Of a DNA stretch of 33,537 bases, positions 1,214 through 28,141 are shown piece after piece. The notes beneath the pieces were generated by a model. That model was not told where the DNA came from and did not search any database. It saw only the letters and a list, made by a program, of their open reading frames with translations. How positions within the stretch are numbered: the first letter of the stretch is position 1; the number at the start of each line of letters is the position of its first letter. The position numbers were made by a program, and so were the translations under genes. The DNA comes from a gamma proteobacterium endosymbiont of Lamellibrachia anaximandri (GTDB lineage Bacteria > Pseudomonadota > Gammaproteobacteria > Chromatiales > Chromatiaceae): NCBI GenBank assembly GCA_016756855.1, contig JAESPD010000041.1, positions 1-33,537 of the forward strand, read 5' to 3'.

Positions 1214-1224
1214 TGGCGGCAATC

Positions 1225-1255: not shown

Positions 1256-1281
1256 AGCACCGACCGTTGCGCCAAGCCTTT

Positions 1282-1314
1282 TGCCTGATCCGCTGCGCTT
1301 GATCAGGCCTACAG
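1282..1314 (-). repeat. REP-like palindrome, copy 2
   Basis: GCCTGATC (1283-1290), ten-base loop CGCTGCGCTT, GATCAGGC (1301-1308), then CTACA. The stem is a perfect 8-bp inverted repeat. The same sequence appears at 12441-12478, and in the opposite orientation at 32267-32298. It lies between arnA (decarboxylase) and arnD inside the operon, where it could act as an mRNA 3'-end stabiliser or partial terminator. Confidence 0.75.
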
Positions 1315-1335
1315 ATCCAGGTTGCCAAACCCAGA

Positions 1336-2379: not shown

Positions 2380-2413
2380 AGCAGATGCTTCTCCAGTTTC
2401 ACTATATTCAAGG

Positions 2414-5441: not shown

Positions 5442-5443
5442 AG

Positions 5444-5815
5444 TCAGCTCCTGGCCAGGATAAACACGCCGAGGATGATGACCCCGATACCAGAGAGGCG
5501 CGCAATGCTCAGTACTTCACCAAACAACGCCCAGGCGGCAAATGCATTCACCACATAACCGATGGAGAGCATCGGGTAGGCAATCGATACATCCACTCGT
5601 GAGAGCGCCAGAATCCATACGATGACACTGATGCCGTAACAGAAGAGCCCGACCCAGAGCCAGGGTTCTCCCATCAGCCGCAGGGCCACAGCGCCGGAGT
5701 CGGCCATTTTCAGTTCGATGGCCCCCATGCTGTTCACGCTCGCCTTTAGTGCCAGCTGTGCGACGGCGTTGAGCAGCACACCGGTCAAAATCAGGGAAAA
5801 ACTCACCAGGTTCAT
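5444..5815 (-). CDS. ArnE/ArnF-type small multidrug-like transporter
   Basis: Small EamA/SMR-type membrane protein with four predicted helices (about residues 4-24, 49-70, 73-94, 99-121). In arn operons ArnE and ArnF are proposed to form a heterodimeric flippase carrying undecaprenyl-phosphate-L-Ara4N across the inner membrane. At 123 residues it is a typical length. Only one such gene is present, so either it works as a homodimer or the partner is elsewhere. The ATG at 5815 overlaps the arnT stop by four bases. I cannot tell ArnE from ArnF by eye, so I give no symbol. Confidence 0.8.
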   Translation of the reverse strand: MNLVSFSLILTGVLLNAVAQLALKASVNSMGAIELKMADSGAVALRLMGEPWLWVGLFCYGISVIVWILALSRVDVSIAYPMLSIGYVVNAFAAWALFGEVLSIARLSGIGVIILGVFILARS

Positions 5816-7455
5816 CGGCGTATCACCGCTAGTTTGCGTGGATCTCTGTAGATAATCTGCATCGGCATCTCATCAAAGTTGAATCTCGAAAAACTCTCTG
5901 CATCAAAAACAGCTATGGCCTGCTCATCCTGCATCCAGCGCGATTTAAACTCAGCGAAACTCGGAATCCATTTCTCTGGTTCCTGACGAATGCCCATATC
6001 CAGTTCACTGCGCATAATGGCCAGTTGCACAGGTTTTCCGAGATAGAAGGGCAATGACTGAGGATAGGTCTCCACAGTATAAACCGGGGCACCGGCATCG
6101 ACATAAGGGCGAATCTGCTCAGCCAACGTCCGACTGGAACGGGAACTGCTCAGAGTCTGATAACCCCAGGAGAGCAGTTGCACTGAAAGCAATGCGGTCA
6201 ACGCCAGCGCAGTTATGGCCTTTGGTCCGGCAGCACCAAAATGCCTCACAAGCCAGAAACCACCAAACATCAGCCCTGTCGCGGCCAACCACCAGGGGCG
6301 ATAGGTATGGAGCAATTCAGCCGGCAGTGCACTGGTTGCAACCAGATCTATCTGCCAGGCAGCAACCAGAAACACCAGACCCACAACCGGCATCAGCCAG
6401 ATCTCCGGACCAAGACGGGAATTTTCCGCCAGCGTTTTTCCGATCATCAGGGACAGCGCGGGAAACATCGGCAGCAGATAGGCGGGTAGTTGGGAACTGC
6501 CCATGAAAAAAAAGACGAAAATAAATACCGCGAAAACCCAGAGAAAGCGGATGGGATCGAAAACAGCGGCTTTGGCGGGCAACCAGGCAAAATCCGGTTT
6601 AAACAGATTTTTCGTCACCGCGCTGACCCAGGGCACTGCGCCCAGCAGCAGAATGGCGAGAAGATACCACCAGGGCTTGTCCCGCATATGAACCGTGGAG
6701 GTATAACGGTCGAAGTGTTCGTGGATAAAGAAGAACTCCGGGAATTCCGGGTTCGCCAGACTGACGGCGATAAACCAGGGAGCGGTCACCAGCAGAAAGA
6801 GCAACAGCCCCTTGCCCAGGTGAAGATGCTTCCAGAGCGCCCAGTCCCGCATCCACAGCGAGTAGAGCACAATTGCCGCACCGGGCAAAACCAGGCCGAT
6901 CAACCCCTTCGTCAGGGTAGCGATGCCCAGGGCGGCCCAACCCAACAGCATCCAGTTTCGCACCTGGGTCAGATTATCCCGGTTCGACTGGGCGATCAGC
7001 AGCGCCCCGACACCAATGCCGAGAAACACGCTGACGGTCATGTCCAGCGTGATGATATGCCCCATTGCCACATAGAGCAGTCCACTTATCGACACAAGAA
7101 AGGCGTAGAACCCCGCCGTCTCTCCCCAGAGCCTGCCCGCCACAAACATCACCCAGAGCGCGCCCAGAAAAGAGATCAGCGCCACCCAGAGCCGGGCTGT
7201 CGCGTTGCTCTCGCCAAACAGGGAGAAGCTGACCGCCGTCATCCAGTACTGGAAAACAGGCTTTTCAAAATATTTGAGGTCGTTGAGCCGGGGCGTGGTC
7301 CAGTCGCCGGTCGCCACCATCTCACGGGGGATTTCCGCATAACGCCCCTCGTCAGGCTCCATCAGGTCGCGGTATCCGAGCAGGGAGAACCAGATCACCG
7401 CAGCAATCGCCACGATCATCCATTTGGTGCTGGAGGTAATGGTGAGATCAGACAT
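5812..7455 (-). CDS. arnT: ArnT lipid A L-Ara4N transferase
   Basis: GT-C-fold integral membrane glycosyltransferase (PMT/ArnT family) that transfers L-Ara4N from undecaprenyl phosphate to lipid A phosphates in the periplasmic leaflet, conferring resistance to polymyxin and cationic peptides. 547 residues, against 550 in E. coli. The signature EPDEGRYAEIPREM (33-46) carries the acidic catalytic residues, and the downstream YFEKPVFQYW matches ArnT. A dozen or so hydrophobic segments follow, then a hydrophilic periplasmic C-terminal domain. It is the first gene of the operon, while in E. coli it follows arnA and arnD. ATG at 7455 is chosen; the upstream sequence has no good Shine-Dalgarno motif. 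Other PMT-type transferases share the EPDE motif, but the context fixes the identity. Confidence 0.92.
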   Translation of the reverse strand: MSDLTITSSTKWMIVAIAAVIWFSLLGYRDLMEPDEGRYAEIPREMVATGDWTTPRLNDLKYFEKPVFQYWMTAVSFSLFGESNATARLWVALISFLGALWVMFVAGRLWGETAGFYAFLVSISGLLYVAMGHIITLDMTVSVFLGIGVGALLIAQSNRDNLTQVRNWMLLGWAALGIATLTKGLIGLVLPGAAIVLYSLWMRDWALWKHLHLGKGLLLFLLVTAPWFIAVSLANPEFPEFFFIHEHFDRYTSTVHMRDKPWWYLLAILLLGAVPWVSAVTKNLFKPDFAWLPAKAAVFDPIRFLWVFAVFIFVFFFMGSSQLPAYLLPMFPALSLMIGKTLAENSRLGPEIWLMPVVGLVFLVAAWQIDLVATSALPAELLHTYRPWWLAATGLMFGGFWLVRHFGAAGPKAITALALTALLSVQLLSWGYQTLSSSRSSRTLAEQIRPYVDAGAPVYTVETYPQSLPFYLGKPVQLAIMRSELDMGIRQEPEKWIPSFAEFKSRWMQDEQAIAVFDAESFSRFNFDEMPMQIIYRDPRKLAVIRR

Positions 7456-14532: not shown

Positions 14533-17031
14533 TCACTCTTCGTCTTCGTCCGGGATCTTACCACCCTGATCCAGGGCATTGGCGTGCATCCAGGAAACAG
14601 ACGCATCGTAGTCATTCATGATGCCCTTGCCATTCCAGTTGTAGTCCTCTTCATCATTGGCGAGGAAGGGAACACCTTCATCGTTGACTTCATGACAGGC
14701 GGCACACTTGAAAGGACCGTGGGAACCATCCGGATTGTACTGCGGCGCCTGACGATAGGTTGTCAGATCGGTACGCGGTGTAACCGGATAGAGACCGTGG
14801 ATGGACTGATGACACGCCTGGCAAGCCAGACCCGCATGACCCTTGGAGTAACGCACGTTGGCGTACTTACCCGGCTGGGTGATCGGGAAGGCAGCACCAC
14901 CCTGACCTTCGACATAGGGTGCCGCGTGGCAGTTCGCACAGTGTGGGACGCCTGGAGCCAGCCAGTAGTCACGGCCGTGGGTTGCTGCATCGTAAGGTAC
15001 GGCAGTGGCGCCCGTTGCGCCTTCAGGCAGCTTCAGAGAGGCGATATCAATAGTTGGGTTCGCGGAGAGGGGAGCCACGCTGATGTCACCATCTTCGTCC
15101 TTATTGATCATCGGACCATCACCCTTCAGGGCGATCACCGCGATGTCAGGCACCAGGCGATCCTGCGCCCAGATCTCCAGGATGCGGGACTTACCGGGGG
15201 TGTCATGACCTTTGCCGTCGAGGATGACTTTCGGATCCATCATCTCTTCCAGCTCTTTCATGCTGACACCAATACCCTTGGCGATCTCAGAGAGAGACTT
15301 GTTGCGCAGTGTCTTGCCCTCCTGCTTGAACGCATTGGTCAGTGCATCACGCTGATACAACTCCCGAGAGAGCTGGGTGTGACAGTTGGTGCACCAGAGA
15401 CCCTTGCCGTTACCACCATTACCGATCTGGGAGACATTCTCCTGCAGCCATTCTCCGATCGCATTCAGATGTTCAGGTGTCTCTACACCGTCGGTATCCT
15501 TGCCGGGATTGGAGTGAACGTCACGACCGACGAAACAGCCGCCGGCAGCGTCACGGTTATCGGTATCCGCATAGGCGTTCTTACCGTCCTGGGTGATCGG
15601 ATAACCTTCCATGCTGCCGTCCTGACGATGAACTGGGTGACAGCCCTGACACGCACCGGTACGACCCTGGGAGTCAGGCATTGGCGTGGCTTTCAGATGA
15701 ACGCCATGAATCGCCTCGGTCAGAGGCATGATCACCTTCTCTTTGCCGGTCTTGGGATCTTTGAACGACTTGGATTGAAGTACACCGATGACGTTATCAG
15801 CATGACACTTCTGACAGAGTACCGGATCGCGACCGAGACGGTTCATGGTGGCGCGACTGCCGGGCTTGTAGTCCTTCATGAAGTCGGTGCCGTTGTTGTC
15901 GTCATGCATCTCCAGGATGGAGACAGATGTCGCCTTCAGGTTGGCAATCCAGTCAGATGCGCCCAGTGCCTTCCAGAAGGCCCTCTCCTGCTTGTAGAGG
16001 GTGTACTTGTCACCATTGCCGGTCTCATTCGAGTGGCAGTTGGAGCAGTTGGGAACATCAACCGGGTTGGTACCCACGAAGGTGATCGGCTTGCCGCTGT
16101 GGCTATCCAGAACAGGTTTACCGGTATCGGCATCAACCATACTTACCCAGGCTTCCTGGAATGGCTGAATATCAGACTCCACCAGGGTCAGCGGGTCTTT
16201 GGCGGCCACACTGTCAGTGAACGGTGTCAGAGCCAGCCCCAGTGCATCCCATATGCCCGGATGAGTCAGCATGATCGGCACATTCTCCAGCACGGGAGAC
16301 TGAGTATAGACGATGGTGCCTACCTCTCCCGTATAGTGAAGATGTCCACCCTGCATCGGGCTGGGCGCTGCCGCACCGGCAGGGCCATTGTCTTTCAGCA
16401 CAGGCACTTGCAGACCGACACGCAGCTTTTCACTGTCTTTACTGGTTCCCTTGGGATTGGTCCCTTTCAGATCCTTATAGACATAAAGATGGGGCCAGTA
16501 GGCGTTGGCAACATTCTCGTTGGGACCGTACTTGCCATCCTCATTGACATCATAGGGAACGTCCCAATACTTCAGCTTGTTGCCTTCAGAGAAGTTGTTG
16601 TCGATGTGGCCATAGTTGAGTTTGAAGCGTTTTTTACCGTCAATAACCACCGTCGGATCTTTTTCATCCGCTTCCAGCATCTCCGGGTATTTCTTTCTGC
16701 CGGTTGCCGTCTTGATAACCTGCGACTGAATCGAGTTGTATGGCGGCAACACGCAACAGTAGGTAAAATCGAAGCCGGTACAGTGCATGCCCAGCTCGTA
16801 GTTGATGGTGATGTTGTAATCGTTCTTCGGTTTGTTGGGATCTGCGGCAACCAATGGTCCCGCATAACGCTTCATTGCGCTGGGCGCTGCGGTCTCGTGT
16901 GCCATCGCGGCCTGCCCCTTGGCCTCCGCTGTGTCTTTGGCTTTCGCAGTGTCTTCAGCAGGCTGCTGGGTGGTACAACCCACAGCCGCCACGACAGTGA
17001 GTGCTGTGAGCACAAAGGTATTTCTACCCAT
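14533..17031 (-). CDS. Seven-heme c-type cytochrome lipoprotein
   Basis: 832-residue exported cytochrome. The N terminus TALTVVAAVGCTTQQ ends in a lipobox-like AVGC (C19), so it is probably a lipoprotein. Seven CXXCH haem-binding motifs are visible at residues 329-333, 406-410, 461-465, 547-551, 698-702, 737-741 and 776-780. The first 320 residues lack haem motifs but hold three cysteines (C84, C92, C93) in a conserved-looking GMHCTGFDF segment. The acidic C terminus ends DEDEE. The SD is AAGGGGG upstream of ATG 17031. It most likely carries electrons across or at the outer membrane. I do not recognise a named family (it is not a close match to MtrC, OmcA or NrfA by eye), and its electron donor and acceptor are unknown. 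Confidence 0.85.
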   Translation of the reverse strand: MGRNTFVLTALTVVAAVGCTTQQPAEDTAKAKDTAEAKGQAAMAHETAAPSAMKRYAGPLVAADPNKPKNDYNITINYELGMHCTGFDFTYCCVLPPYNSIQSQVIKTATGRKKYPEMLEADEKDPTVVIDGKKRFKLNYGHIDNNFSEGNKLKYWDVPYDVNEDGKYGPNENVANAYWPHLYVYKDLKGTNPKGTSKDSEKLRVGLQVPVLKDNGPAGAAAPSPMQGGHLHYTGEVGTIVYTQSPVLENVPIMLTHPGIWDALGLALTPFTDSVAAKDPLTLVESDIQPFQEAWVSMVDADTGKPVLDSHSGKPITFVGTNPVDVPNCSNCHSNETGNGDKYTLYKQERAFWKALGASDWIANLKATSVSILEMHDDNNGTDFMKDYKPGSRATMNRLGRDPVLCQKCHADNVIGVLQSKSFKDPKTGKEKVIMPLTEAIHGVHLKATPMPDSQGRTGACQGCHPVHRQDGSMEGYPITQDGKNAYADTDNRDAAGGCFVGRDVHSNPGKDTDGVETPEHLNAIGEWLQENVSQIGNGGNGKGLWCTNCHTQLSRELYQRDALTNAFKQEGKTLRNKSLSEIAKGIGVSMKELEEMMDPKVILDGKGHDTPGKSRILEIWAQDRLVPDIAVIALKGDGPMINKDEDGDISVAPLSANPTIDIASLKLPEGATGATAVPYDAATHGRDYWLAPGVPHCANCHAAPYVEGQGGAAFPITQPGKYANVRYSKGHAGLACQACHQSIHGLYPVTPRTDLTTYRQAPQYNPDGSHGPFKCAACHEVNDEGVPFLANDEEDYNWNGKGIMNDYDASVSWMHANALDQGGKIPDEDEE

Positions 17032-17253: not shown

Positions 17254-17931
17254 ATGCCGTCAGGATTAATTTTCAGAATGAAGATGATGGGTTGGGATGG
17301 GCTGACAACCTTCTTTCTCTCATCGCTGATTGTCCTGCTATCGTTGGGATTGAGCCTGATACCATCACTCCGCACAGTCTGTCTGACCGCAAGAAAGACG
17401 CCCTCGACCGCTCCCGGCAAAGCACTGCTTATCGTGCTGGGTGCGCGCCTTGAGCAAGATGTCGTCTCTGCGCGTTTTATTACACGGCTGCAGCGGGCAT
17501 TGAACCTGTACAATCTGGCACCACCCGGATCGATATTGATCCTCGGCGGCATTACCGGCAAAAACCATTTCAGTGAAGCGGAACGAGGACGCGACTGGCT
17601 CGAGTCTGAAGGAGTCAGTAGCAATGATATCCAAATGGAGATGCGCTCACGCAATACCCTGGAAAATCTGAAGCATGCCCGCGACCTGATAGATCAAAGC
17701 CAGCGGGTTCCCGTTTTCATCACAAGCCGTTTCCATCTGGCCAGATGCGCAGCCATGGCCAGTGGTCTGGGACTGACACACCAGCTCTGTGCGGCAGAGG
17801 AGAAACTGGCATTTAGACCCTCGCTCATTTATTTATGTCTGCTGGAGGCCTTCTATCTGCATTGGTACCAAGTGGGGAAATTCTGGTCCAGATTGACCCG
17901 AAACAGAAAAAGCCTGGAACGGATCAGCTAG
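17254..17931 (+). CDS. YdcF-like DUF218 membrane protein
   Basis: 225 residues. One N-terminal membrane helix (about 17-38) anchors a DUF218 domain, with LIVLGARLEQDVVSARFITRL at 59-79 (core LGARLEQD), ILGGITGKNHFSEAERGR at 95-112, SRNTLENLKHAR near 131-142 and FITSRFHLARC near 154-164. DUF218 proteins such as YdcF and SanA are linked to envelope integrity, and some fold like nucleotide-binding enzymes; the reaction is not known. ATG at 17254 is preceded by GAGAG. It is the first gene right of the Fur-box-like site and lies 102 bases before the acyl carrier protein gene, which has its own promoter candidate, so joint function with the polyketide-type operon is possible but unproven. Confidence 0.78.
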   Translation: MPSGLIFRMKMMGWDGLTTFFLSSLIVLLSLGLSLIPSLRTVCLTARKTPSTAPGKALLIVLGARLEQDVVSARFITRLQRALNLYNLAPPGSILILGGITGKNHFSEAERGRDWLESEGVSSNDIQMEMRSRNTLENLKHARDLIDQSQRVPVFITSRFHLARCAAMASGLGLTHQLCAAEEKLAFRPSLIYLCLLEAFYLHWYQVGKFWSRLTRNRKSLERIS

Positions 17932-18033: not shown

Positions 18034-18285
18034 ATGCTGGAAAACGAAGTTGCCACGCTGATTATCGATACCCTCAACCTGCGGGTCGACCCTTCATCCA
18101 TCGACCCTCAGGCCCCTCTGTTCAACGAAGGACTCGGGCTGGACTCTATCGATGCGCTTGAACTCGCCATGTCGATCTCGAAAAAATACGGCTTTCAACT
18201 CCGTTCCAATGACGAGAACAACGCCAACATCTTCGCCTCACTCAGTTCCCTGAGCAGACACATCGAATCCAGCCGCACGACGTGA
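18034..18285 (+). CDS. Acyl carrier protein (APE-type)
   Basis: 83-residue acyl carrier protein. The phosphopantetheine attachment motif is GLDSIDALEL with S38 as the modified serine; the surrounding helices match the family. It would hold the growing chain for the ketosynthase, dehydratases and reductase encoded downstream. APE clusters of E. coli and Xenorhabdus have two carrier proteins (ApeE and ApeF); only one is here. It is the first gene of the tightly packed operon; its stop overlaps the next gene's GTG by four bases (GTGA). No strong ribosome binding site is visible before ATG 18034. Confidence 0.9.
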   Translation: MLENEVATLIIDTLNLRVDPSSIDPQAPLFNEGLGLDSIDALELAMSISKKYGFQLRSNDENNANIFASLSSLSRHIESSRTT

Positions 18286-18920
18286 GTGTCGACACCTCCC
18301 ATGTCCGGGGCCTGCGGCCACTCGTCATGGTGATGACCTTCAGTTATCCGGTAACGCTACACCTCGCTATCATCAACGGTTTTCTGCAACTGGCCGTCTG
18401 GATACTGTTGGCGATTGCAGTGGCACACTCTCTCCTTATATTGAGTTCGTCGAAACGCAAACTGACCGACCTGTTCCCTCCATCCGTTGCAGCACTTGCG
18501 GTCATCTGTCTGCTGCTGAAGGTCGAAACCGCCCTCTATCTGCCGCCGGTTCTAATCTCTGCTCTACTGCTCTATCTTTTTGGCCGGACCCTGTTGCCCG
18601 GACAGGAACCCCTCATCACCCGCATCGCCCGCAGAATGGGCGACAATGATCTGCCTCACCGCCGCTACACACAGGCACTTACCTGGGTATGGACACTCTT
18701 CTTTGCAGCTATTTTCATCGAGTCCGTACTACTGGCCCTGTTTGCGACCATCGAAGTCTGGTCCCTCTTCACCAATTTCATCAACTACCTGCTGATCCTG
18801 GTATTATTCCTGCTGGATTACCTGGTCTTCCGGGTCATCTATTTCCGCCGACCACCCTCTCTCAACGCTGTCAGACGCGTACTGCGGGAGAGAAACCTGC
18901 AACGGATAGTGCGAGATTGA
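18282..18920 (+). CDS. COG4648-type membrane protein (ApeG-like)
   Basis: 212-residue integral membrane protein with about five or six hydrophobic segments (for example 37-52, 64-80, 84-98, 130-150 and 155-180), ending in a basic tail RRVLRERNLQRIVRD. A membrane protein of this kind sits between the carrier protein and the acyl-ACP synthetase in aryl-polyene clusters (ApeG, unknown function). GTG at 18282 overlaps the carrier protein stop by four bases; its own stop overlaps the next gene's TTG by four. The assignment rests on position plus topology and is stronger for its position than for its function. Confidence 0.72.
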   Translation: MSVDTSHVRGLRPLVMVMTFSYPVTLHLAIINGFLQLAVWILLAIAVAHSLLILSSSKRKLTDLFPPSVAALAVICLLLKVETALYLPPVLISALLLYLFGRTLLPGQEPLITRIARRMGDNDLPHRRYTQALTWVWTLFFAAIFIESVLLALFATIEVWSLFTNFINYLLILVLFLLDYLVFRVIYFRRPPSLNAVRRVLRERNLQRIVRD

Positions 18921-20251
18921 ACCATCTGCCTCTGACAGCTACAACCGATCCGGAAAGAATCGTCGCCTGGCGTGATAATGAACCCCGCAGCCTGTCGCGA
19001 CTGCTGATAGATGCAAGAGCCGTCGCCGGGCAGTTGCCGGATCGATCCTGCCTGATCAACCTCTGCGAAAACCGCTACCGATTTCTCGTTGGCCTGATTG
19101 CCGGTATTCTGAAGGGACAGAAAATCGTGCTGCCACCGGGACGGGCAAATGAAGATCTCAAACGCCTGCAGCAGCACTGCAACTCGATCTATTGCCTGAC
19201 CGACACAGATACACGGCTGGGTGACATAGAGATTCACCGCTACACCGATCCCGTATGTAGTGACTCGAGTGAACAAGCGATACCTGAGGTACCCTCAGCC
19301 AAACCGCAAATCGAACTCTTTACTTCCGGCAGCACCGGCAGAGCCACTGCCCACCAAAAAAGCTGGGGCACCCTCTGGGAAGGCGCCCGGCTGACCGGTG
19401 AACGGCTGGGACTCGACAATCTGACCCAGGCGACCGTACTCGCCACCGTCCCGCCACAGCATATGTTCGGACTGGAGGCCTCCATCCTGCTGCCGCTGCG
19501 ATGGGGACTTTCAGTCTCATCCGAACAGCCCCTCTTTGCCGCTGACATCGCTGCATCGCTGGAAAAACTGCCCGCACCCCGCATCCTCGTCACCACCCCA
19601 CTCCATCTGCGTAACTGTGTTGAGGAAGAGATCAAGCTACCGCAAACCACCTTCATTCTGTCGGCCACATCAACCCTCTCTCCTACACTGGCATCCCGGG
19701 CTGAGAGACTGTTCGATACCCAGGTACTCGAAATCTACGGTTCCACTGAAACCGGCGCAATCGCCACCCGCCGGCCAGCGCTGAAGTCTGACTGGTCATT
19801 GTTACCGGGCATAACCCTGGATCAGGAAACGAAAGGGTGGCGGGTGGCAGCAGCCCATCTTCCGGAATCGGTACGGCTCAGCGACCGGTTGAAAAAAACG
19901 TCGGAACACCATTTCATCCTGCTTGGCCGGGATAGCGACATGGTAAAAATTGCTGGTAAACGTGCTTCCCTCGAGGATCTCAACCTGCGGCTTCAATCTC
20001 TCGATGGCGTGGAGGATGGTGTCTTTTTTCTTCCCGAGCAGAGATCTGCTTCGATCCCCCGGCTCACCGCTTTTGTTGTCTCAAATATTTTGGACGAGCA
20101 GGAGATTACCCAGGCGTTGCGTGAACAGCTTGACCCGGCGTTCCTGCCCCGCCCGCTGTTTAAAGTCGACCGATTGCCCAGAAACGCAACCGGCAAACTC
20201 CCTCAGAGTGCATTGGTTACCCTGTTCAAACAGTGCGGGGAAAAGCAATGA
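18917..20251 (+). CDS. AMP-binding acyl-ACP synthetase (ApeH-like)
   Basis: 444-residue ANL-superfamily enzyme that would activate the starter acid with ATP and load it on the carrier protein. Visible: the P-loop-like FTSGSTGRATAHQKS (135-149), EIYGSTETGA in the middle (adenylate-binding), and near the C terminus PRNATGKLPQSAL with the catalytic lysine. It is shorter than typical 500-600-residue acyl-CoA ligases, like ApeH. I start it at TTG 18917, which overlaps the previous stop by four bases (TTGA) and is in frame with the family sequence; an open frame extending back to 18689 overlaps the membrane protein gene and has no family-like sequence. Substrate (aromatic acid or other) is not readable. 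Confidence 0.83.
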   Translation: MNHLPLTATTDPERIVAWRDNEPRSLSRLLIDARAVAGQLPDRSCLINLCENRYRFLVGLIAGILKGQKIVLPPGRANEDLKRLQQHCNSIYCLTDTDTRLGDIEIHRYTDPVCSDSSEQAIPEVPSAKPQIELFTSGSTGRATAHQKSWGTLWEGARLTGERLGLDNLTQATVLATVPPQHMFGLEASILLPLRWGLSVSSEQPLFAADIAASLEKLPAPRILVTTPLHLRNCVEEEIKLPQTTFILSATSTLSPTLASRAERLFDTQVLEIYGSTETGAIATRRPALKSDWSLLPGITLDQETKGWRVAAAHLPESVRLSDRLKKTSEHHFILLGRDSDMVKIAGKRASLEDLNLRLQSLDGVEDGVFFLPEQRSASIPRLTAFVVSNILDEQEITQALREQLDPAFLPRPLFKVDRLPRNATGKLPQSALVTLFKQCGEKQ

Positions 20252-20526
20252 TCATCCCCGCAAGCCACCCTGCCCTTGCCGGCCACTTCCCGGATAATCC
20301 CCTGGTTCCCGGCGTGGTGATTCTGGATTTTGTGTTGCAGAAGGCCTGGGGAAAGGGTCTGAAAGTAACCGGTTTCAGCCGTACAAAATTCATCGCCCCC
20401 TTGCGAGCTGAAACCCCCTTCGAGATTGAGATCACCCTGTTGAAACAGGAGTGCGAGTTTCGTGTTCTGGCTGCGGGCGATAGCCTCGCCCACGGCATAC
20501 TGAACTGTCCGGATCACTTTTCATGA
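20248..20526 (+). CDS. Hotdog-fold 3-hydroxyacyl-ACP dehydratase (ApeI-like)
   Basis: 92-residue single hotdog domain. HPALAGHFPDNPLVPGVV at 7-24 is the FabA/FabZ-type signature with catalytic H13; the following ILDFVLQKAW is the central helix. It would remove water from the 3-hydroxyacyl-ACP, creating a double bond in each cycle. ATG 20248 overlaps the synthetase stop by four bases (ATGA); a GTG at 20233 lies in the same frame but is less likely. Small dehydratases of this sort sit at the same place in aryl-polyene clusters. Its partner dehydratase is encoded at 25748. Confidence 0.83.
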   Translation: MIIPASHPALAGHFPDNPLVPGVVILDFVLQKAWGKGLKVTGFSRTKFIAPLRAETPFEIEITLLKQECEFRVLAAGDSLAHGILNCPDHFS

Positions 20527-21431
20527 GTCGCCAGTGGCTGAAACAATCCGAACGCGGCAGCCTGTTTCTGATCCGTTTGATAACAAACATCACCCTGCTC
20601 CTTGGACGCCCGGCGGGCCGGCTGTTGCTCTATCCCATCACGCTCTACTTCGTTCTCTTCTCCGGCAAGGCGCGCAACGCTTCCCGGCATTACCTTAAAC
20701 GGGTGTTGCCGCAACCGATCGGTATGCGTCACATCTTCCGTCACTACCACACCTTTGCCGCCACCATCCTCGACCGGATCTATCTGCTCTCCGGCAGACA
20801 GGACTATTTCAACATCGATATCAGAGGTGAGACCCTGCTTCTGGAGCAGTTGAAAGATGGCCGGGGTTGTATGTTGCTGGGTTCCCATCTGGGCAGCTTC
20901 GAACTACTACGCAGTCTGGCGGCAACTCATCCGGATATTTCAGTAAAGGCGCTGATGTATGAAGAGAATGCGGAGAAGATCAATCAGGTCATACAGACAC
21001 TGAACCCGGAGATCGCCGACATGATCATCCCTATCGGCAGGCCGGACAGCCTGTTTCAGGTTCAGGAGGCCATCGAACGGGGCGAGATCATCGGTATCCT
21101 CGGCGACCGCATCGCCCTGGACGATAAACAGGTCAAGGTTCTTTTCTTCGATCAGACCTGCCGTTTTCCCGCCGGACCCATGCTGATTGCCGGACTGCTG
21201 AAGATTCCGGTGGTGCTGTTTTTCGGCATCCACCGAGGCGGTCGAGACTACCAGATTCACTTTGAACTGCTTACCGAAGGCTTTCATCTCGACCGGGAAG
21301 AGCGTTGGCAACAGATCACCGAATGGACGCAGCGTTACGCAAACCGGCTGGAGTACCACACCCGGCAAGCACCCTACAACTGGTTTAATTTCTACGATTT
21401 CTGGGATGAATCAGGGAATAGACCAAAGTGA
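20523..21431 (+). CDS. LpxL/HtrB-type lipid acyltransferase (COG4261-like)
   Basis: 302-residue acyltransferase. The catalytic HxxxxE motif is GSHLGSFE at about 120-127. A membrane-facing N-terminal hydrophobic stretch (about 15-48) and the C-terminal APYNWFNFYDFW (about 281-292) are typical of the acyltransferase half of the glycosyltransferase-acyltransferase fusion (ApeJ) in aryl-polyene clusters. Here it is a free-standing gene, and the GT2 glycosyltransferase comes at 26923. It should transfer the finished chain from ACP or CoA to a glycolipid or phospholipid acceptor. ATG 20523 overlaps the dehydratase stop (ATGA), and the stop overlaps the exporter's GTG (GTGA). Confidence 0.82.
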   Translation: MSRQWLKQSERGSLFLIRLITNITLLLGRPAGRLLLYPITLYFVLFSGKARNASRHYLKRVLPQPIGMRHIFRHYHTFAATILDRIYLLSGRQDYFNIDIRGETLLLEQLKDGRGCMLLGSHLGSFELLRSLAATHPDISVKALMYEENAEKINQVIQTLNPEIADMIIPIGRPDSLFQVQEAIERGEIIGILGDRIALDDKQVKVLFFDQTCRFPAGPMLIAGLLKIPVVLFFGIHRGGRDYQIHFELLTEGFHLDREERWQQITEWTQRYANRLEYHTRQAPYNWFNFYDFWDESGNRPK

Positions 21432-23740
21432 ACCCGGCGGCGAAAAAAAACGGCCTGATCTGGCTGCTGCTGGTGATCGCCTCGGTCTGGATCATTGTTA
21501 CTGCCCCTCCACTGGAAAACGATATGGGTCAGTTTCTGCCCAGTGCGGCAACGCCGCAGCAGGCACTGCTGCTGGATGAGATCAGCCAGGGAACAGGATC
21601 ACGTCTTTTCCTGCTTGCCGTCGCGGGCGGGGAACCGAATCAACTAGACGGAACAAGCCGTAAGCTGAAACAGCAATTGATGGAGACTGGCCACTTCCAG
21701 CAAGTAATGAACGGCGAATCCCTGATCGACGAAAAAACCCGTCAATTACTCTTCGACTATCGCTATCTATTGATAAAAACAGAGATCACCCAGGAAACCC
21801 TGCACATCGCCCTGCAGAAACGACTGCGTGAACTCACCACTCCAGTAGGCATGCCCGGCAGACGATATCTACCCAATGATCCCACTGCCACTGCCCGGGA
21901 GATAATGACTCGATGGGCATCAAACGGTGGAACTGTAGAGACCCGGGGAATCTGGCGTTCACCAGACAATTCTCAGATTTTGCTGATGCTGCAGAGTCAC
22001 TATCCTGCGACGGCGCTCGAGCAACAGGCGGCTGCCATCAAAAGTATCAGGAGTGCATTCAACACCCTGCCCGACCATGAAAGGCTAAACCTGACCATTA
22101 CAGGCCCCCCCTATTTTGGAGTGGAGTCGCGCCGCATCATCCGTCAGGAAGCCCGGTCGATGTCACTCTACGCCTCTATCGGCGTCGCCCTGCTGCTGCT
22201 CTTCTCCTTCCGCTCATTGCGGCTGTTGCTGCTGGCGGCACTGCCACTTACCAGTGGTGTGCTGGCCGGAACCGCAACGGTTTTACTCGCCTTCAACAGT
22301 ATGCACGCCATCACCCTGGCCTTCGGCATCACCTTGATCGGTGTAGCGGTGGACTACCCGATTCACCTCTTCACCCATCTGCGCCATGGCGAACGTGGAG
22401 AGGAAGCCATGCGAAGAGTCTGGCCCATCCTCAGACTCGGACTGATCACCACCGCATTGGGATTCAGCGCCCTGCTGCTGACCGATTTCGGCGGACTGGC
22501 TCAACTCGGCACCTTTGCAGTGGCCGGTCTGTTGGCGGCGGCCCTGGCGACCCGATATCTGCTGCCCACACTGACGCCGGAAAGCGTACAGCCCAATCCC
22601 TTTGAACGGCCTGTCAGAAGGCTCTTTTCTACCCAATCATCCACCCGCCACAGGTCGGCCATCCCACTGGTTATACTGGTGTTGTCCGGCCTCACGCTTT
22701 TCCTCTCGGGCGAGCAACTCCGGGAGCATGACCTGAGGCGGCTCAGCCCAATTTCAGCCGAGACACGGGAACAGGATCAACAACTCCGGCAGCAGTTGGG
22801 AGAGGCGGATGCCGGCCGTCTGCTGATCATTTCCGGCACATCCGCCGAAGATGTCCTGCAACAGAGTGAACAGTTGGAGGGGTTGCTTGAGCATGCAGTC
22901 AAGCAGGGGCTATTGAGCCGATTTGATTTGCCCTCCCGATTGCTGCCGAGTCACCGCATCCAGCTTGAAAACCGAAATCTCCTACCGGATCGTCACTCAC
23001 TGCAAAAAGATCTGGCGCAGGCGGTAGCAGGCATGCCCTTCAAAGCGGGGCTTTTTACCCCCTTTCTGGATGACGTGGCCGACGCTCGCAAGCGTACCCC
23101 CCTCAGCTTCGAACAACTGGAATCCTCTCCACTGGGCCTGCGTCTCTCCGCCCAACTACAACGGAAACCGGATGGCAAATGGCGGGGGCTTGTCCCGCTG
23201 ACCGGCGTGAGTGACGAACCCGCTCTGGAACAGTTGGTAGAGCATGCAGGCATCTCTATCGCCTATCTCAACCTGCACCGGGACACATCGGATCTGGTGG
23301 GCAGCTACCGGGACGAGGCCCTGCGCCTCGCGGGCATGGGTGGGGTGGTTATCCTGTTTGTGCTGCTCTTCGCGCTGCGCAATCTGTCTCAGCTTATCCG
23401 GGTGACACTGCCGGTGGCCACCGCAGTTCTCACCACTGCCGCCCTGCTGGTATTTCTGGGAGAGCAGCTCTCCCTCTTTCACATCGCCGCCCTGTTGCTG
23501 GTCTTGGGAATCGGTCTCGACTATGCGCTCTTCGTGGCGTACACGCCGACTTCCGACCCGGCATTCCCCGCCACTCTGAGTTCACTGCTGATCTGCAATC
23601 TGTCGACCCTGCTGGTTTTTGGATTACTGGCAGCAACCAGCGTGCCCGTTCTGAGCGCCATTGGCCTCACGGTCCTCACAGGCGCTGTTTTCAGCCTTAT
23701 TTTCAGTGTATCGATGGTGCATAATGAGACGCATCCATAG
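21428..23740 (+). CDS. MMPL/RND-family lipid exporter (ApeM-like)
   Basis: 770-residue inner-membrane RND/MMPL transporter. One helix near residues 8-27, then a large periplasmic loop (about 28-230), a block of five helices (about 236-385), a short cytoplasmic linker, one more helix near 415-430, a second periplasmic loop, and a final block of five (about 633-768). The transmembrane IGVAVDYPIH and LGIGLDYALFVA segments hold the paired Asp-Tyr positions expected for proton coupling in the two halves. It should export the lipid-linked product across the inner membrane. GTG 21428 overlaps the acyltransferase stop by four bases. No LolA-like carrier or DUF3261 lipoprotein is found next to it, though APE clusters carry both. 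Confidence 0.85.
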   Translation: MNPAAKKNGLIWLLLVIASVWIIVTAPPLENDMGQFLPSAATPQQALLLDEISQGTGSRLFLLAVAGGEPNQLDGTSRKLKQQLMETGHFQQVMNGESLIDEKTRQLLFDYRYLLIKTEITQETLHIALQKRLRELTTPVGMPGRRYLPNDPTATAREIMTRWASNGGTVETRGIWRSPDNSQILLMLQSHYPATALEQQAAAIKSIRSAFNTLPDHERLNLTITGPPYFGVESRRIIRQEARSMSLYASIGVALLLLFSFRSLRLLLLAALPLTSGVLAGTATVLLAFNSMHAITLAFGITLIGVAVDYPIHLFTHLRHGERGEEAMRRVWPILRLGLITTALGFSALLLTDFGGLAQLGTFAVAGLLAAALATRYLLPTLTPESVQPNPFERPVRRLFSTQSSTRHRSAIPLVILVLSGLTLFLSGEQLREHDLRRLSPISAETREQDQQLRQQLGEADAGRLLIISGTSAEDVLQQSEQLEGLLEHAVKQGLLSRFDLPSRLLPSHRIQLENRNLLPDRHSLQKDLAQAVAGMPFKAGLFTPFLDDVADARKRTPLSFEQLESSPLGLRLSAQLQRKPDGKWRGLVPLTGVSDEPALEQLVEHAGISIAYLNLHRDTSDLVGSYRDEALRLAGMGGVVILFVLLFALRNLSQLIRVTLPVATAVLTTAALLVFLGEQLSLFHIAALLLVLGIGLDYALFVAYTPTSDPAFPATLSSLLICNLSTLLVFGLLAATSVPVLSAIGLTVLTGAVFSLIFSVSMVHNETHP

Positions 23741-23772
23741 CCCAATGCCAATAGGCCCCATTTGAACCCTTG

Positions 23773-24960
23773 ATGGACCCACTCCAGATAACTGCATACA
23801 CCACCATCAGTGCCGCTGGAGATGGAAAAGAGGCACTGCAAAGCGCACTGCTCGAAGGCAAAGGGGGACTCCAGCCCAACGACTTCGGCCATGCCCCTCT
23901 CGATACCTGGATCGGGCGCGTGGCCGATCTGGAAAACCGGCCATTGGATGAGGGCGACCGGCAGTTCGAGTGCCGCAACAACCGTCTGGCCTTCATGGCG
24001 CTCCAGCAGGACGGCTTTCTTACCGCAGTCGAGTCCCTCAAATCCCGCGTTGATCCAACCCGCATCGGGCTCTTCCTCGGCACCAGCACCTCGGGCATCC
24101 TCAGCACCGAGCAGGCCTATCTGGAGCTGGGCAAGAGTGGACGCTGGCCTGCCGGGTATCACTTCAAAGGCAGCCACGATCTCTTCTCGGCAACCCAGTT
24201 TGTGCGGATGAAACTGGGTCTGAAAGGCCCCGCATTCTCAATCTCCACCGCTTGTTCATCCAGTGCCAAGGTCTTCTGTGACGCCCACAGATTCATCTCC
24301 ACCGGACTCTGTGATGCCGCCATCGCCGGCGGTGTCGATTCGCTTTGTCTCACGACACTTTTCGGATTCAACTCGCTGGAACTGGTCTCCGGGCAACCCT
24401 GCCGCCCCTTCGACCAGAACCGTGACGGAATCTCCATCGGTGAGGCAGCAGGTTTCATGGTTCTGGAAAAAAACAGCTCGACCGATTCAGGCGTCGCACT
24501 GCTCGGCTATGGTGAAAGCAGCGATGCCTACCACATCTCCACCCCGAGACCGGATGGCGCCGGCGCCAGACTCGCCATGGAGCAAGCCCTGAACCGGGCA
24601 GGTCTGACGGTTGATGAGATCGACTATATCAATCTGCATGGCACCGCAACACCCAGCAATGACAGAGCTGAGGCCAACTCGATCAATCGGCTCTTTCCGT
24701 CATCAACCCCATGCAGTTCCACCAAAGGCTGGACCGGACACACGCTTGGCGCGGCGGGTATCACCGAATCGATCATCGCCTGCCTGGCGATTGAAGCAGG
24801 CTTCATACCCGGCACCCTCAGCACCCAATCACCGGACCCGACGCTTGGACTCAATATACAACGCGCTACCACAACAGAACCGGTAACCCGGGTATTGAGT
24901 AACTCCTTCGGCTTTGGCGGTAGTAACTGCAGTCTTCTCTTTGGACGAATCTCATGTTGA
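23773..24960 (+). CDS. Beta-ketoacyl-ACP synthase (ApeO-like)
   Basis: 395-residue type II ketosynthase (FabF/FabB fold) for decarboxylative condensation of malonyl-ACP with the growing chain. The catalytic triad is complete: C161 in STACSSS, H289 in NLHGTATPSND and H323 in KGWTGHTLGAAG, with K318 nearby. The C-terminal NSFGFGGSNCS is the family signature. I start at ATG 23773; a TTG one codon upstream (23770) is possible. It follows the exporter by 32 bases. Its partner is probably the inactive half-size ketosynthase just downstream, which overlaps it by seven bases. This is the only full-length ketosynthase in the window, whereas aryl-polyene loci usually have an additional one (ApeR) for initiation or elongation. 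Confidence 0.88.
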   Translation: MDPLQITAYTTISAAGDGKEALQSALLEGKGGLQPNDFGHAPLDTWIGRVADLENRPLDEGDRQFECRNNRLAFMALQQDGFLTAVESLKSRVDPTRIGLFLGTSTSGILSTEQAYLELGKSGRWPAGYHFKGSHDLFSATQFVRMKLGLKGPAFSISTACSSSAKVFCDAHRFISTGLCDAAIAGGVDSLCLTTLFGFNSLELVSGQPCRPFDQNRDGISIGEAAGFMVLEKNSSTDSGVALLGYGESSDAYHISTPRPDGAGARLAMEQALNRAGLTVDEIDYINLHGTATPSNDRAEANSINRLFPSSTPCSSTKGWTGHTLGAAGITESIIACLAIEAGFIPGTLSTQSPDPTLGLNIQRATTTEPVTRVLSNSFGFGGSNCSLLFGRISC

Positions 24961-25754
24961 GTTTCTATCTGGAGGCACCCGCCGTTGCAGCCCCTGGGCT
25001 GGATGGCTGGACAAAGGCCAAGCCTGTGCTGGCGCAAGAGACTGCCTATCGCCAGACCCACCTGCCCAAGTATGTACCGAAAATACTGCCGCCAACCGCC
25101 CAGCGCAGAGGCAGTATAAGCACCCTGCTGGCCACCCAGGCCGCCCAGGAATCGCTGGGCGCTACAGAGATCGCCCCAAGGGAACTGGCCTCGATCTTCG
25201 CCTCTTCCATTGGTGATCCGGAGATCGTCGACCGGCTCTGCTCTGCATTGGCGGATCCGCAACCGATGGTCTCGCCTATCCAATTCCACAACTCGGTTCA
25301 CAATGCCCCCGCCGGCTATTGGAGTATCGCCATCGATTCACTGGAGAGCACCAGCAGCCTGGCGGCCGGCGATGCCAGTTTCGCTGCAGGTTTTTTGTCG
25401 GCAGCCGTTCAATGCCGGGCCGAGTCACGCTCACTTCTGTTAGTCGCCTATGATCTGCCATTCGCAGCACCAATGGATACAACCTGTCCGCTCTCCGCTC
25501 CATTTGCCACTTCGATGGTAGTAACACCCTCCGCCACCAGACAGACCCAGCTGCACTGCACACTGGAAATCAACGCCATCTCTGCTCCAGCTTCCCGCAT
25601 GGCTGACGCCGAATTGGAGCAGTTGCGCGTCGGCAACCCTGCAGCCCGCGCCCTGCCATTATTGCGGCAACTGGCCTCTCCGACTGATGAAGAAACTCTC
25701 ACTTTTGATTATCTGCCCGACTGCCAACTGCAATTGAAGTGCAAACCATGCTGA
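24954..25754 (+). CDS. Half-size ketosynthase homologue, chain length factor (ApeC-like)
   Basis: 266-residue ketosynthase-like protein with only the N-terminal thiolase half. FHNSVHNAPAGYWSIAID (about 111-128) is the signature of the aryl-polyene chain length factor, next to STSSLAAGDASF where the active Cys of an ordinary ketosynthase would be; the window shows no catalytic Cys in that place and no HGT or GHTLG histidine motif. Such proteins form a heterodimer with a working ketosynthase and set chain length. ATG 24954 overlaps the ketosynthase stop (ATGTTGA). Its stop overlaps the next gene by seven bases. I infer non-catalytic pairing with the ketosynthase from the arrangement and residues. 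Confidence 0.8.
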   Translation: MLSFYLEAPAVAAPGLDGWTKAKPVLAQETAYRQTHLPKYVPKILPPTAQRRGSISTLLATQAAQESLGATEIAPRELASIFASSIGDPEIVDRLCSALADPQPMVSPIQFHNSVHNAPAGYWSIAIDSLESTSSLAAGDASFAAGFLSAAVQCRAESRSLLLVAYDLPFAAPMDTTCPLSAPFATSMVVTPSATRQTQLHCTLEINAISAPASRMADAELEQLRVGNPAARALPLLRQLASPTDEETLTFDYLPDCQLQLKCKPC

Positions 25755-26185
25755 ATAGACGGCAAATCTGCGAGCGGCTTCCCCACTCAGGCAGCATGTG
25801 CCTGCTCGACAGCGTGGAGCACTGGGATAACGACAATATCCAATGCATTGCAATCAACCACAGGGAACCTTCAAATCCACTACGCAACCCTATGGGATTG
25901 CCCACAATCAGCGGCGTCGAGTATGCCGCACAAGCCATGGCGGTTCACGGCAGTCTGCTCGCAGATGACAACTCGCCCCGCATGGGTTTTCTTGCCGGGC
26001 TGCGGGATCTCGAACTCAAAACAGAATGGCTGCATAATCTGCAGGGAGAGCTGGTTATTTCCGCTCACAAGCTAGCTGCTGATGAGGGTGGCGCCATCTA
26101 TGATTTCCATATGGAAGCCAACTCGCAACCCTTGTTGAAAGGACGGGCCACGGTGATCTATCAGAACAGAGGGATAGAATCTTGA
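25748..26185 (+). CDS. ApeP-like hotdog dehydratase
   Basis: 145-residue hotdog-fold protein of the COG4706 (ApeP) type, a second 3-hydroxyacyl-ACP dehydratase. LPHSGSMCLLDSVE at 11-24 carries the catalytic H13, and ISGVEYAAQAMAVHG at 54-68 the acidic residue E58; both are the motifs that mark this group. In aryl-polyene synthesis ApeI and ApeP act on growing intermediates. I start at ATG 25748, overlapping the preceding stop by seven bases; a GTG at 25739 lies in frame. Its stop overlaps the ketoreductase start by four bases (TTGA), so translation is coupled. Confidence 0.83.
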   Translation: MLNRRQICERLPHSGSMCLLDSVEHWDNDNIQCIAINHREPSNPLRNPMGLPTISGVEYAAQAMAVHGSLLADDNSPRMGFLAGLRDLELKTEWLHNLQGELVISAHKLAADEGGAIYDFHMEANSQPLLKGRATVIYQNRGIES

Positions 26186-26901
26186 AACGTGCACTGGTAA
26201 CAGGAGGGAGTGGCGCCATCGGCGGCACCATCTGCCGAAAACTTGCTGCCGATGGCCTGTTTGTACTGATCCATGCCAACAGCAAACCGGAGCGGGCCCG
26301 GCAACTGGCTGAAGAGATCAACAGCCAGGGGGGATTCGCCGAGGCAGTCTGTTTTGATGTGCGGGACAGCAGACACAGCAAGGGGACCATAGAACACCTG
26401 CTGCACGGGGGACCGGTGCAGGTTCTGGTCAACAATGCCGGTATCCACGATGACATGCCGATGGCAGGCATGGAAGCCAAGCAATGGCAGAATGTCATCG
26501 ACGTTTCACTGAACGGATTTTTCAACGTCACCCAACCTCTGCTACTGCCGATGATGTCCACCCGCTGGGGGCGCATCATCTCACTCTCTTCCGTGGCCGG
26601 CATCATGGGGAACCGGGGACAGACCAACTACGCTGCCGCCAAGGCAGGACTGCACGGCGCCAGCAAATCCCTGGCCATTGAACTGGCCTCCCGTGGCATA
26701 ACCGTGAATGTAGTCGCCCCAGGCGTTATCGAATCCCCGATGCTCGGAGAGCACTTTACACCGGAAGTCATCGACCGGTTGGTGCCGATGAAACGTGCTG
26801 GCAAACCTGAAGAGGTGGCAGATCTGGTCTCTTTCCTCGCCTCTGAAAGCGCCGCCTATATCTCAGGGCAGATCATCTCCATCAACGGCGCAATGGCCTG
26901 A
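26182..26901 (+). CDS. FabG-like 3-ketoacyl-ACP reductase (ApeQ-like)
   Basis: 239-residue short-chain dehydrogenase. TGGSGAIG (7-14) binds NADP(H), NNAG is at 84-87, and the catalytic residues are S137, Y150 and K154 in ISLSSVAG and NYAAAKAG. The C-terminal SGQIISINGAMA is a FabG hallmark. It would reduce the ketosynthase product to the 3-hydroxyacyl-ACP. The start is TTG at 26182, overlapping the dehydratase stop; no ATG lies close upstream or downstream at a family-like position. It is followed 21 bases later by the glycosyltransferase gene. Confidence 0.87.
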   Translation: MKRALVTGGSGAIGGTICRKLAADGLFVLIHANSKPERARQLAEEINSQGGFAEAVCFDVRDSRHSKGTIEHLLHGGPVQVLVNNAGIHDDMPMAGMEAKQWQNVIDVSLNGFFNVTQPLLLPMMSTRWGRIISLSSVAGIMGNRGQTNYAAAKAGLHGASKSLAIELASRGITVNVVAPGVIESPMLGEHFTPEVIDRLVPMKRAGKPEEVADLVSFLASESAAYISGQIISINGAMA

Positions 26902-26922
26902 TTCAGGGACAATCAACACAAG

Positions 26923-27684
26923 ATGTCGATTCCAGTAACAGTGGTCATACCCGCCTACAATGAGGCGGCCACCATTCGTGATCTGGCGAAACGTGTCTTG
27001 CAGCATACATCCCAACTCATCGTGGTGGATGACGGCTCCAGTGACGACACAGCTGACCAACTTGCCGACCTGCCGCTGATGCTGATCCGTCATCAGGAAA
27101 ACAGGGGTAAGGCAGCCAGTCTGCACGATGGCATGCAGGCGGCGGTCAATCAGGGCGCCAAATGCGTGATCACCCTCGATGGCGACGGCCAGCATGTGCC
27201 AGAGGATATTCCCAAACTCTTTGCAAGCTGGGAGGCCAATCCGAAACACCTGATCATAGGCGCACGCCTGCAGAACCGTGAACAGGCCCCCAATGCACGG
27301 CGCCGCGCCAATAACTTTGCCGACTTCTGGATATCCTGGGCGGCGGGCAGCCGTATCCGCGACAGCCAATCCGGACTCCGGCTCTATCCTGCCGATGCGA
27401 TTCAATCAGTTTCTGTTTCACACAGCAGGGAACGGGGATTTGTTTTTGAGAGTGAATACCTGATCGAAGCGGCGAAAAAGGGTTTTGGATTCAGCACGGT
27501 TCCCGTCGAGTCCCGCTATCCACAGCAGGCGCGGGCAAGCCACTTCCGTCCAGTGGCGGATATTACCCGTATTGTCCTGATGGTGGCGGGAAAACTCATC
27601 GCCAGCGGCATGTATCCCATGGGACTCTATCGAGTATTATTCAGAGAGAATAACGAACCCGACAGGTTTCCTCATGAGAAATAA
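26923..27684 (+). CDS. GT2 glycosyltransferase
   Basis: 253-residue family-2 glycosyltransferase. VVIPAYNEAATIRDL (7-21), IVVDDGSSDDT (33-43) and TLDGDGQHVPED (84-95) form the nucleotide-sugar site with the DxD-type DGD; SQSGLRLYP is the usual later motif. No membrane helix is evident apart from moderately hydrophobic VLMVAGKLIASG near the end. In aryl-polyene clusters this domain is fused to the acyltransferase (ApeJ); here the two are separated by six genes. It probably glycosylates the lipid acceptor of the product. ATG 26923 is preceded by a 21-base gap, so coupling to the ketoreductase is loose. Sugar donor unknown. Confidence 0.82.
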   Translation: MSIPVTVVIPAYNEAATIRDLAKRVLQHTSQLIVVDDGSSDDTADQLADLPLMLIRHQENRGKAASLHDGMQAAVNQGAKCVITLDGDGQHVPEDIPKLFASWEANPKHLIIGARLQNREQAPNARRRANNFADFWISWAAGSRIRDSQSGLRLYPADAIQSVSVSHSRERGFVFESEYLIEAAKKGFGFSTVPVESRYPQQARASHFRPVADITRIVLMVAGKLIASGMYPMGLYRVLFRENNEPDRFPHEK

Positions 27685-27745
27685 GCGAGTAAACTTTCAC
27701 CCGCAGGTTATGTATAAGCCTTTATCAACTTAAGGAGAGTTAGTG

Positions 27746-28141
27746 ATGAAGCAGAAATTATTGGGCGTTCTGATCGTCAGTATGGTTACACTATTCCTGG
27801 CGGGATGCCCGCATCAGGCAATGGTCTATAACGTTGAGGACGCATCCGTTGTCGCCAACAAGGATGGGGTCACCATGGACGATGTCCGCAAGGCCATCAT
27901 CCGTGCCGGCGCCACGCTCGGCTGGAACATGAATGATAAGGGTTCAGGCCTGGTTGAAGGCACCATTCATCTTCGCTCCCACATGGCACAGGTCGATATT
28001 CCGTATGATGCCCAGACCTACAGCATCAAGTACAAAAACAGCGACAACCTGAAGTACGATGGCGAAAAGATCCACAGCAACTACAATGGCTGGATTCAAA
28101 ACCTCGACCGGGCGATCAAGGCGCAGTTGAGTACGCTCTGA
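27746..28141 (+). CDS. Small lipoprotein of unknown function
   Basis: 131-residue protein with a clear lipoprotein signal: MKQKLLGVLIVSMVTLFLAGC, lipobox LAGC, cysteine at residue 21. The mature part is mixed alpha/beta in character (repeated DVRKAIIRAGATLGW, then a beta-rich HLRSHMAQVDIPYDAQTYSIKY). I do not recognise a named family. ATG 27746 is preceded by AAGGAG eight bases upstream; a GTG lies one codon earlier. It stands 61 bases after the glycosyltransferase and could be the operon's last gene, which in aryl-polyene loci would fit a periplasmic or outer-membrane export helper, or an independent gene with its own promoter. No resemblance to LolA or DUF3261 proteins is evident by eye. 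Confidence 0.7.
   Translation: MKQKLLGVLIVSMVTLFLAGCPHQAMVYNVEDASVVANKDGVTMDDVRKAIIRAGATLGWNMNDKGSGLVEGTIHLRSHMAQVDIPYDAQTYSIKYKNSDNLKYDGEKIHSNYNGWIQNLDRAIKAQLSTL

Follow-up and report, generated by a model that had tools for sequence, protein, structure and literature searches.

The window analysed here, a whole contig of 33,537 bases (JAESPD010000041.1) from the 4.26 Mb draft genome of the gammaproteobacterial endosymbiont of Lamellibrachia anaximandri, carries on its + strand a run of 13 genes that very probably constitutes an intact aryl-polyene cluster, one of the compact, xanthomonadin-like kind with a single ketosynthase. The bacterium belongs to a genus that appears to comprise the endosymbionts of vestimentiferan tubeworms, Endoriftia and its kin (name from the title of PMC9796809). 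A sequence-only reading of the window had placed eleven genes of an aryl-polyene-like operon at positions 18034-27684, and all of them were found on that strand, with the families as stated, by Pfam and NCBIfam profiles and by comparison with the experimentally studied aryl-polyene cluster of Escherichia coli CFT073, the reference for our protein-by-protein BLAST searches. Eleven of the 13 genes matched CFT073 ApeA, ApeC, ApeE, ApeG, ApeH, ApeI, ApeJ (both halves), ApeM, ApeO and ApeQ, and for ApeE, ApeG, ApeH, ApeI, ApeM, ApeO, ApeC and ApeQ the best CFT073 match was the namesake in each case.

ApeE (18034..18285), an acyl carrier protein (ACP) with the serine motif GLDSID, is 46% identical over 79 amino acids (aa) to CFT073 ApeE (E 9e-20) and scores above the cut-off of NF006617 (PRK09184). 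It is followed by ApeG (18282..18920), a COG4648-type membrane protein (36% over 125 aa, E 2e-14), by the acyl-ACP synthetase ApeH (18917..20251, TTG start; 29% over 457 aa, E 8e-34), which has the motifs FTSGSTG and EIYGSTETG and a C-terminal NATGK lysine, and by ApeI (20233..20526), a small hot-dog dehydratase (38% over 55 aa, E 1e-8) with the motif HFPDNPLVPGV. Judging from homology and motifs, ApeE and ApeH would be a dedicated ACP and acyl-ACP synthetase, and ApeH should load the aryl starter. Next come a lipid A-type acyltransferase, Jat (20523..21431; PF03279), 34% identical to residues 247-549 of ApeJ (E 5e-52), and the MMPL/RND exporter ApeM (21428..23740; PF03176; 25% over 591 aa, E 2e-31).

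The ketosynthase ApeO (23770..24960; 42% identity to CFT073 ApeO) has the Cys-His-His motifs, and the adjoining half ketosynthase (24954..25754; PF13723) is ApeC (29% over 141 aa, E 1e-9). The latter is the normal chain-length factor and no sign of reduction; in CFT073, too, ApeC is only 240 aa long and of the same Pfam family. The remaining genes of the original span are an ApeP-like dehydratase (25739..26185), identified by alignment and by a match to PF22817 (E 1.1e-5) with 25.5 bits against a curated cut-off of 27 bits; the FabG-like ketoreductase ApeQ (26182..26901; 45%, E 2e-64); and a GT2 glycosyltransferase, Jgt (26923..27684; PF00535), 33% identical to ApeJ residues 8-226 (E 4e-29). 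Jat and Jgt are the C-terminal and N-terminal halves of ApeJ, respectively, as separate genes. Alignment showed that the active-site motifs are kept in ApeO, ApeE, ApeH and ApeI, in the meanings that we take these motifs to have. Among solved structures, the best matches of ApeO were 7f28_B and 6qsp_A, and the only matches of ApeC at E <= 0.1 were 7f28_A and 6qsp_B; the two entries are ApeO-ApeC pairs from Acinetobacter and Xenorhabdus (PMC8358021).

Two further genes frame this span. Just beyond it lies ApeA (27743..28141), a small predicted lipoprotein, 38% identical over 120 aa to CFT073 ApeA (E 4e-25), with a FLAGC lipobox recognised by eye. ApeA has no Pfam or NCBIfam match; its AlphaFold model has a mean predicted local distance difference test score (pLDDT) of 86.6, and among solved structures the predicted fold matched nothing at E <= 0.001, KA1-like domains coming closest with weak scores. 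At the other end, a gene for a YdcF/SanA/ElyC-like DUF218 protein of 225 aa (17254..17931; PF02698, E 8e-21) is a probable cluster member. The protein has no counterpart in the CFT073 cluster; the gene lies 102-108 bp from the ACP gene in loci of the genus and <=500 bp from a cluster gene (E, A or GT2) in 9 loci outside it, and travels with this cluster subtype.

The cluster genes mostly overlap or almost abut each other, and their order was identical in each of the five further genomes of the genus that were compared, which argues that the order is not due to chance. Composition gives no sign of recent foreign origin (G+C 0.566 in the cluster, 0.557 and 0.552 in the flanks). An older transfer is possible because the spread of the cluster is patchy: all 6 genomes examined from the genus have ApeC, as do 4 of the 28 others from the family and 2 of the 21 from other families. 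Relatives of ApeC were also sought in viral contigs, and none were found. A promoter scan yielded 6 sites (6.2 expected), and terminator-like sites numbered 18 (10.4 +/- 3.6 expected), a figure that we leave without interpretation.

Related clusters and the ketosynthase tree

For comparison, we assembled 92 loci with ApeC: the window, 11 loci from relatives and 80 named loci, the latter being the best 80 of 573 confirmed matches listed, found by ApeC similarity. This way of sampling favours the present subtype, so that the gene rates below are not valid for all aryl-polyene clusters, and the set includes one duplicate, L019 and L032 coming from the same contig. Since the O and R profiles overlap and their labels in the locus layouts are unreliable, ketosynthases were assigned from a tree. 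In this tree (FastTree, with long branches flagged, those of E. coli ApeO and ApeR among them), 88 of the 92 rows, E. coli ApeO included, formed one clade with support of 100, in which Thiohalomonas branched next to the tubeworm-symbiont genus (support 94). The ketosynthase of the window grouped with E. coli ApeO, apart from ApeR, FabF and two other ketosynthases of its own genome. The aryl-polyene likeness that the sequence-only reading had proposed is thus borne out by the CFT073 matches, the tree and the ApeO-ApeC structure matches. That reading had also held that trees placing these genes within a known complete aryl-polyene subtype would make the cluster ordinary, and this is borne out in part: the ketosynthase does fall among compact aryl-polyene-type clusters, in a tree that contained no Xanthomonas or Lysobacter sequence.

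The compact single-ketosynthase clusters that come closest belong to Thiohalomonas (L038), Candidatus Thiodiazotropha (L040, L044 and L055) and a member of the Chromatiales (L046), which have the same gene families as the window and, like it, apeA near the end. The order E-G-H-I-Jat-[L]-M-O-C-P-Q is found in Thiohalomonas and the Chromatiales locus, in the former continuing as in the window through the GT2 gene, so that the description of the operon as re-ordered cannot be upheld against its own relatives. Thiohalomonas differs in having apeA on the opposite strand, and Candidatus Thiodiazotropha in having G and H after M; the DUF218 gene recurs in L038, L040 and L044. Among the 94 loci scanned for other genes, 39 contain a NodB-like polysaccharide deacetylase (e.g. 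L090:7803-8708) and 26 a UbiE-like methyltransferase, which hint at an amino-sugar anchor and a methylated head group in the relatives; neither profile matched in loci of the tubeworm-symbiont genus.

Much of the apparent reduction of the cluster disappears in this company. The sequence-only reading had listed a second ACP, a thioesterase, a LolA-like carrier, a DUF3261 lipoprotein, a second active ketosynthase, an ammonia lyase and a methyltransferase as missing. It is true that ApeB, ApeD, ApeF, ApeK, ApeL, ApeN and ApeR have no dedicated copy in the cluster; however, they are missing by an enterobacterial standard, and related compact clusters mostly lack ApeB, ApeF, ApeK, ApeN and the second ketosynthase. 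One ketosynthase was present in 81, two in 5 and none in 1 of the 87 loci counted out of 90 eligible (L019, a duplicate of L032, was not counted), these numbers being lower bounds on account of contig ends. Of the 62 loci from outside the genus that contain Jat as well as M, ApeD was found in 18, ApeK in 4, ApeF in 2, ApeB in 1 and ApeN in none, the ApeB and ApeN counts being of low sensitivity, as hardly any sequences went into their profiles (2 and 1 hits, respectively). A single ACP, a single ketosynthase and the lack of thioesterase, methyltransferase and DUF3261 genes are common in related clusters.

Nor was the full complement found outside the window, as far as searched. ApeB, ApeD, ApeF and ApeK had no match in the rest of the window or, in the relative G005 (a single contig), within 20 kb to either side of the cluster stretch; no genome-wide search was made for these four or for the ammonia lyase. 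DUF3261 (ApeN) is absent from the genome, whereas 7 of the 114 genomes searched in the class gave a match. The two G005 flanks contained no other match apart from a single weak one to the GT2 (33% over 129 aa), and the idea that the missing genes lie just off the contig was rejected within these limits. Besides the ketosynthase of the cluster, the genome encodes three more at E <= 1e-5, of which one sits in a FabF/AcpP/FabG setting and the other two have ACP genes as neighbours; none of these three joins the aryl-polyene clade of the tree, and an ApeR encoded elsewhere in the genome was therefore rejected. By eye, one ketosynthase gene of this genome, on contig C127 (L003), is adjoined by an ACP gene and a methyltransferase-like gene; this locus perhaps represents a second lipid pathway.

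Two characterised systems bracket the cluster. The E. coli CFT073 cluster shares ApeA, ApeC, ApeE, ApeG, ApeH, ApeI, ApeM, ApeO, ApeQ, both ApeJ domains and the ApeP-like protein with the window, which differs in having ApeJ in two genes and in lacking the seven genes named above. The cluster of Lysobacter enzymogenes OH11, compared through its description in PMC3691225 rather than through its sequence, has, like the window, one ketosynthase beside a half chain-length factor, one ACP, two dehydratases, a ketoreductase, an acyltransferase, an exporter and a dolichyl-phosphate-mannose-synthase-like gene, and, as far as that description extends, no thioesterase or methyltransferase gene. In addition, it has ORF5 (a XanB2 homologue), the LolA-like ORF10, a regulator and further exporters, all of which the window cluster lacks. 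The window thus combines xanthomonadin-type features (a single ketosynthase with a half factor and a single ACP in the cluster) with those of aryl-polyene clusters at large, namely the ApeO-ApeC pair, ApeQ, ApeI and the ApeP-like protein, ApeG, ApeJ, ApeM and ApeA, and has none of the enterobacterial accessory set ApeF, ApeK, ApeN, ApeR, ApeB and ApeD, which varies between subtypes.

According to published work, reduced gene sets of this sort can suffice for pigment. Lysobacter uses a single ketosynthase and its half factor for xanthomonadin-like pigment (PMC3691225). An E. coli apeR mutant still produces the full pigment lipid, and apeF and apeK mutants retain partial pigment, while apeN replacement mutants, possibly polar, were without it (PMC8253772). 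In vitro, the polyene was fully elongated by ApeO-ApeC without ApeR (PMC8358021).

The LolA-like carrier ApeL

The one clear reduction in the cluster is the loss of the LolA-like ApeL. Many loci end at contig ends, and the ApeL count was restricted to the 69 loci with both Jat and M: ApeL was encoded <=300 bp from the exporter in 62 of 62 such loci outside the genus and in 0 of 7 inside it, the seven representing six species (L019 and L032 being one contig). The five compact clusters described above all keep apeL between Jat and M. In the window, the start of apeM overlaps the stop of Jat by 4 bp at the very place where relatives hold apeL. An ApeL profile built from relatives gave strong matches in five of six comparison genomes, while in G028, the remaining one, the match was partial and lay at the end of a contig; in all six genomes of the genus, its only match was weak (E 8e-9 to 1.3e-7) and fell on canonical LolA. 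We did not treat ApeL as a condition of membership in the aryl-polyene clusters, because the Lysobacter ORF10, LolA-like by HHpred, is dispensable for pigment (PMC3691225). The cluster is most likely a carrier-less version of a known, widespread compact subtype, in a host that is also notable.

Starter unit and intactness

Three observations point to an aromatic hydroxybenzoate starter as the most likely one. All six genomes of the genus encode UbiC, a source of 4-hydroxybenzoate that also serves ubiquinone; a chorismatase of the FkbO/Hyg5 type, likewise a hydroxybenzoate source, occurs in 23 of the 92 related loci; and ApeH shares with its E. coli counterpart the motifs PQH-[ML]-[FY]-GL and EIYGSTETG, which we take to border the substrate pocket. 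XanB2 is presumably a member of the same chorismatase family, PF21168. The sequence-only reading had entertained another kind of polyunsaturated lipid, perhaps begun from a non-aromatic starter; ApeH would then load that starter after re-specialisation. Such a change would agree with the divergence of ApeH from E. coli ApeH, with the lack of a starter-making gene in the cluster and with the rate of apeH, the second-fastest evolving enzyme gene by mean (ratio of nonsynonymous to synonymous substitution rates, dN/dS, 0.28-0.33) after apeI (up to 0.40). We nevertheless regard it as unlikely and unsupported, given the UbiC genes, the chorismatases of the relatives, the kept ApeH motifs and the grouping of the ketosynthase with E. 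coli ApeO; furthermore, the best NCBIfam match of ApeH was TIGR02372 (4-coumarate ligase), albeit far below the cut-off (108.5 versus 334.7 bits).

With the aryl-polyene assignment retained, the genes themselves appear sound. All 13 are open and of full length, with no stop codons, in the five other species compared, and dN/dS relative to the window ranged from 0 to 0.40 (13 genes x 5 species, in pairs that all share the window and are not independent). By this measure apeA encodes the most conserved protein of the cluster (0-0.057 across the genus).

Several points weigh against an intact, functional cluster of this kind. In E. coli, apeL replacement mutants were unpigmented, which speaks against a general dispensability of apeL, although the authors allow for polar effects; the same authors deem nearly all genes, perhaps except apeR, necessary if the lipid is to be complete (PMC8253772). 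Throughput in vitro was higher with ApeR, and one spectral feature of the polyene appeared only in its presence (PMC8358021). In the window, ApeH (29%) and ApeM (25%) are diverged from their E. coli counterparts, and the ApeP-like protein, already below the Pfam cut-off, has no BLAST match to CFT073 ApeP, to which its relative in locus L018 does match (E 3e-4). The FkbO/Hyg5-type chorismatase (PF21168) is found in none of six genomes of the genus and in three of six comparison genomes. Most cluster genes exceed the dN/dS of the neighbouring purL (0.058-0.079), which indicates weaker constraint. Finally, we found no report in the open literature of an aryl-polyene product from the genus, nor any linking Endoriftia, Riftia or tubeworm endosymbionts with polyenes; a broader search brought up a sponge paper, PMC6474228, that mentions aryl polyene once and tubeworm five times. 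Text searches within three tubeworm-symbiont genome papers (PMC9796809, PMC12045306 and PMC7540712) turned up nothing on this pathway, PMC12045306 making two general mentions of secondary metabolites.

The weaker constraint, the genus-wide absence of apeL and the unpigmented, possibly polar E. coli mutants would also fit a decaying aryl-polyene remnant in a host-associated bacterium that no longer makes the finished product. We consider such decay highly improbable, however, in view of the 13 full-length genes, dN/dS values that do not exceed 0.40 and fall to near zero in apeA, and the overlap of the genes that flank the lost apeL. An intact cluster remains the interpretation that we favour, and it is most likely a working one, with a yellow membrane pigment as its predicted product.

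Elsewhere in the window, the - strand encodes at 308-7455 a deacetylase, an epimerase, a formyltransferase, a GT2 protein, a DegT aminotransferase, a small membrane protein and an Arnt_C-domain protein. We take these genes to resemble the arn (aminoarabinose lipid A) locus, with ArnA as two genes, an ArnC-like GT2 and ArnT. Also on the - strand, at 14533-17031, an 832 aa multihaem cytochrome with an MtrC/MtrF-like domain is adjoined by PpiC-type and thioredoxin-fold proteins.

Proposed pathway and its implications

From the identities, motifs and conservation of these genes, we infer the following chemistry, product and localisation. UbiC, encoded outside the cluster, would make 4-hydroxybenzoate, which ApeH would load onto ApeE. 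ApeO-ApeC would then elongate the starter with malonyl units, each round being completed by reduction by ApeQ and dehydration by ApeI/ApeP, to give a hydroxyphenyl-polyene acyl chain with conjugated double bonds. The GT2 and the acyltransferase, as the halves of ApeJ, would attach this product to a sugar-lipid of the inner membrane, from which ApeM, aided by ApeG and ApeA, would export the lipid. Since apeL is missing and no gap is left in its place, onward delivery would fall to the general LolA, to ApeA or to nothing at all.

Tentatively, and with more doubt than confidence, we suggest that the aryl-polyene lipid of this genus functions with no dedicated periplasmic carrier, either staying in the inner membrane or being passed on by ApeM together with ApeA and perhaps the DUF218 protein, and that the pathway was thereby directed to a new place in the cell as the bacterium adapted to living within host cells. 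The genus-wide absence of ApeL also provides a natural test of the role of the LolA-like carrier. Among bacterial pigments, aryl polyenes belong to the most widespread (PMC8253772), and a cluster that is intact and under selection in the symbiont of deep-sea tubeworms, far from any sunlight, would point to a function different from that of a sunscreen, for example one against oxidants in the trophosome.

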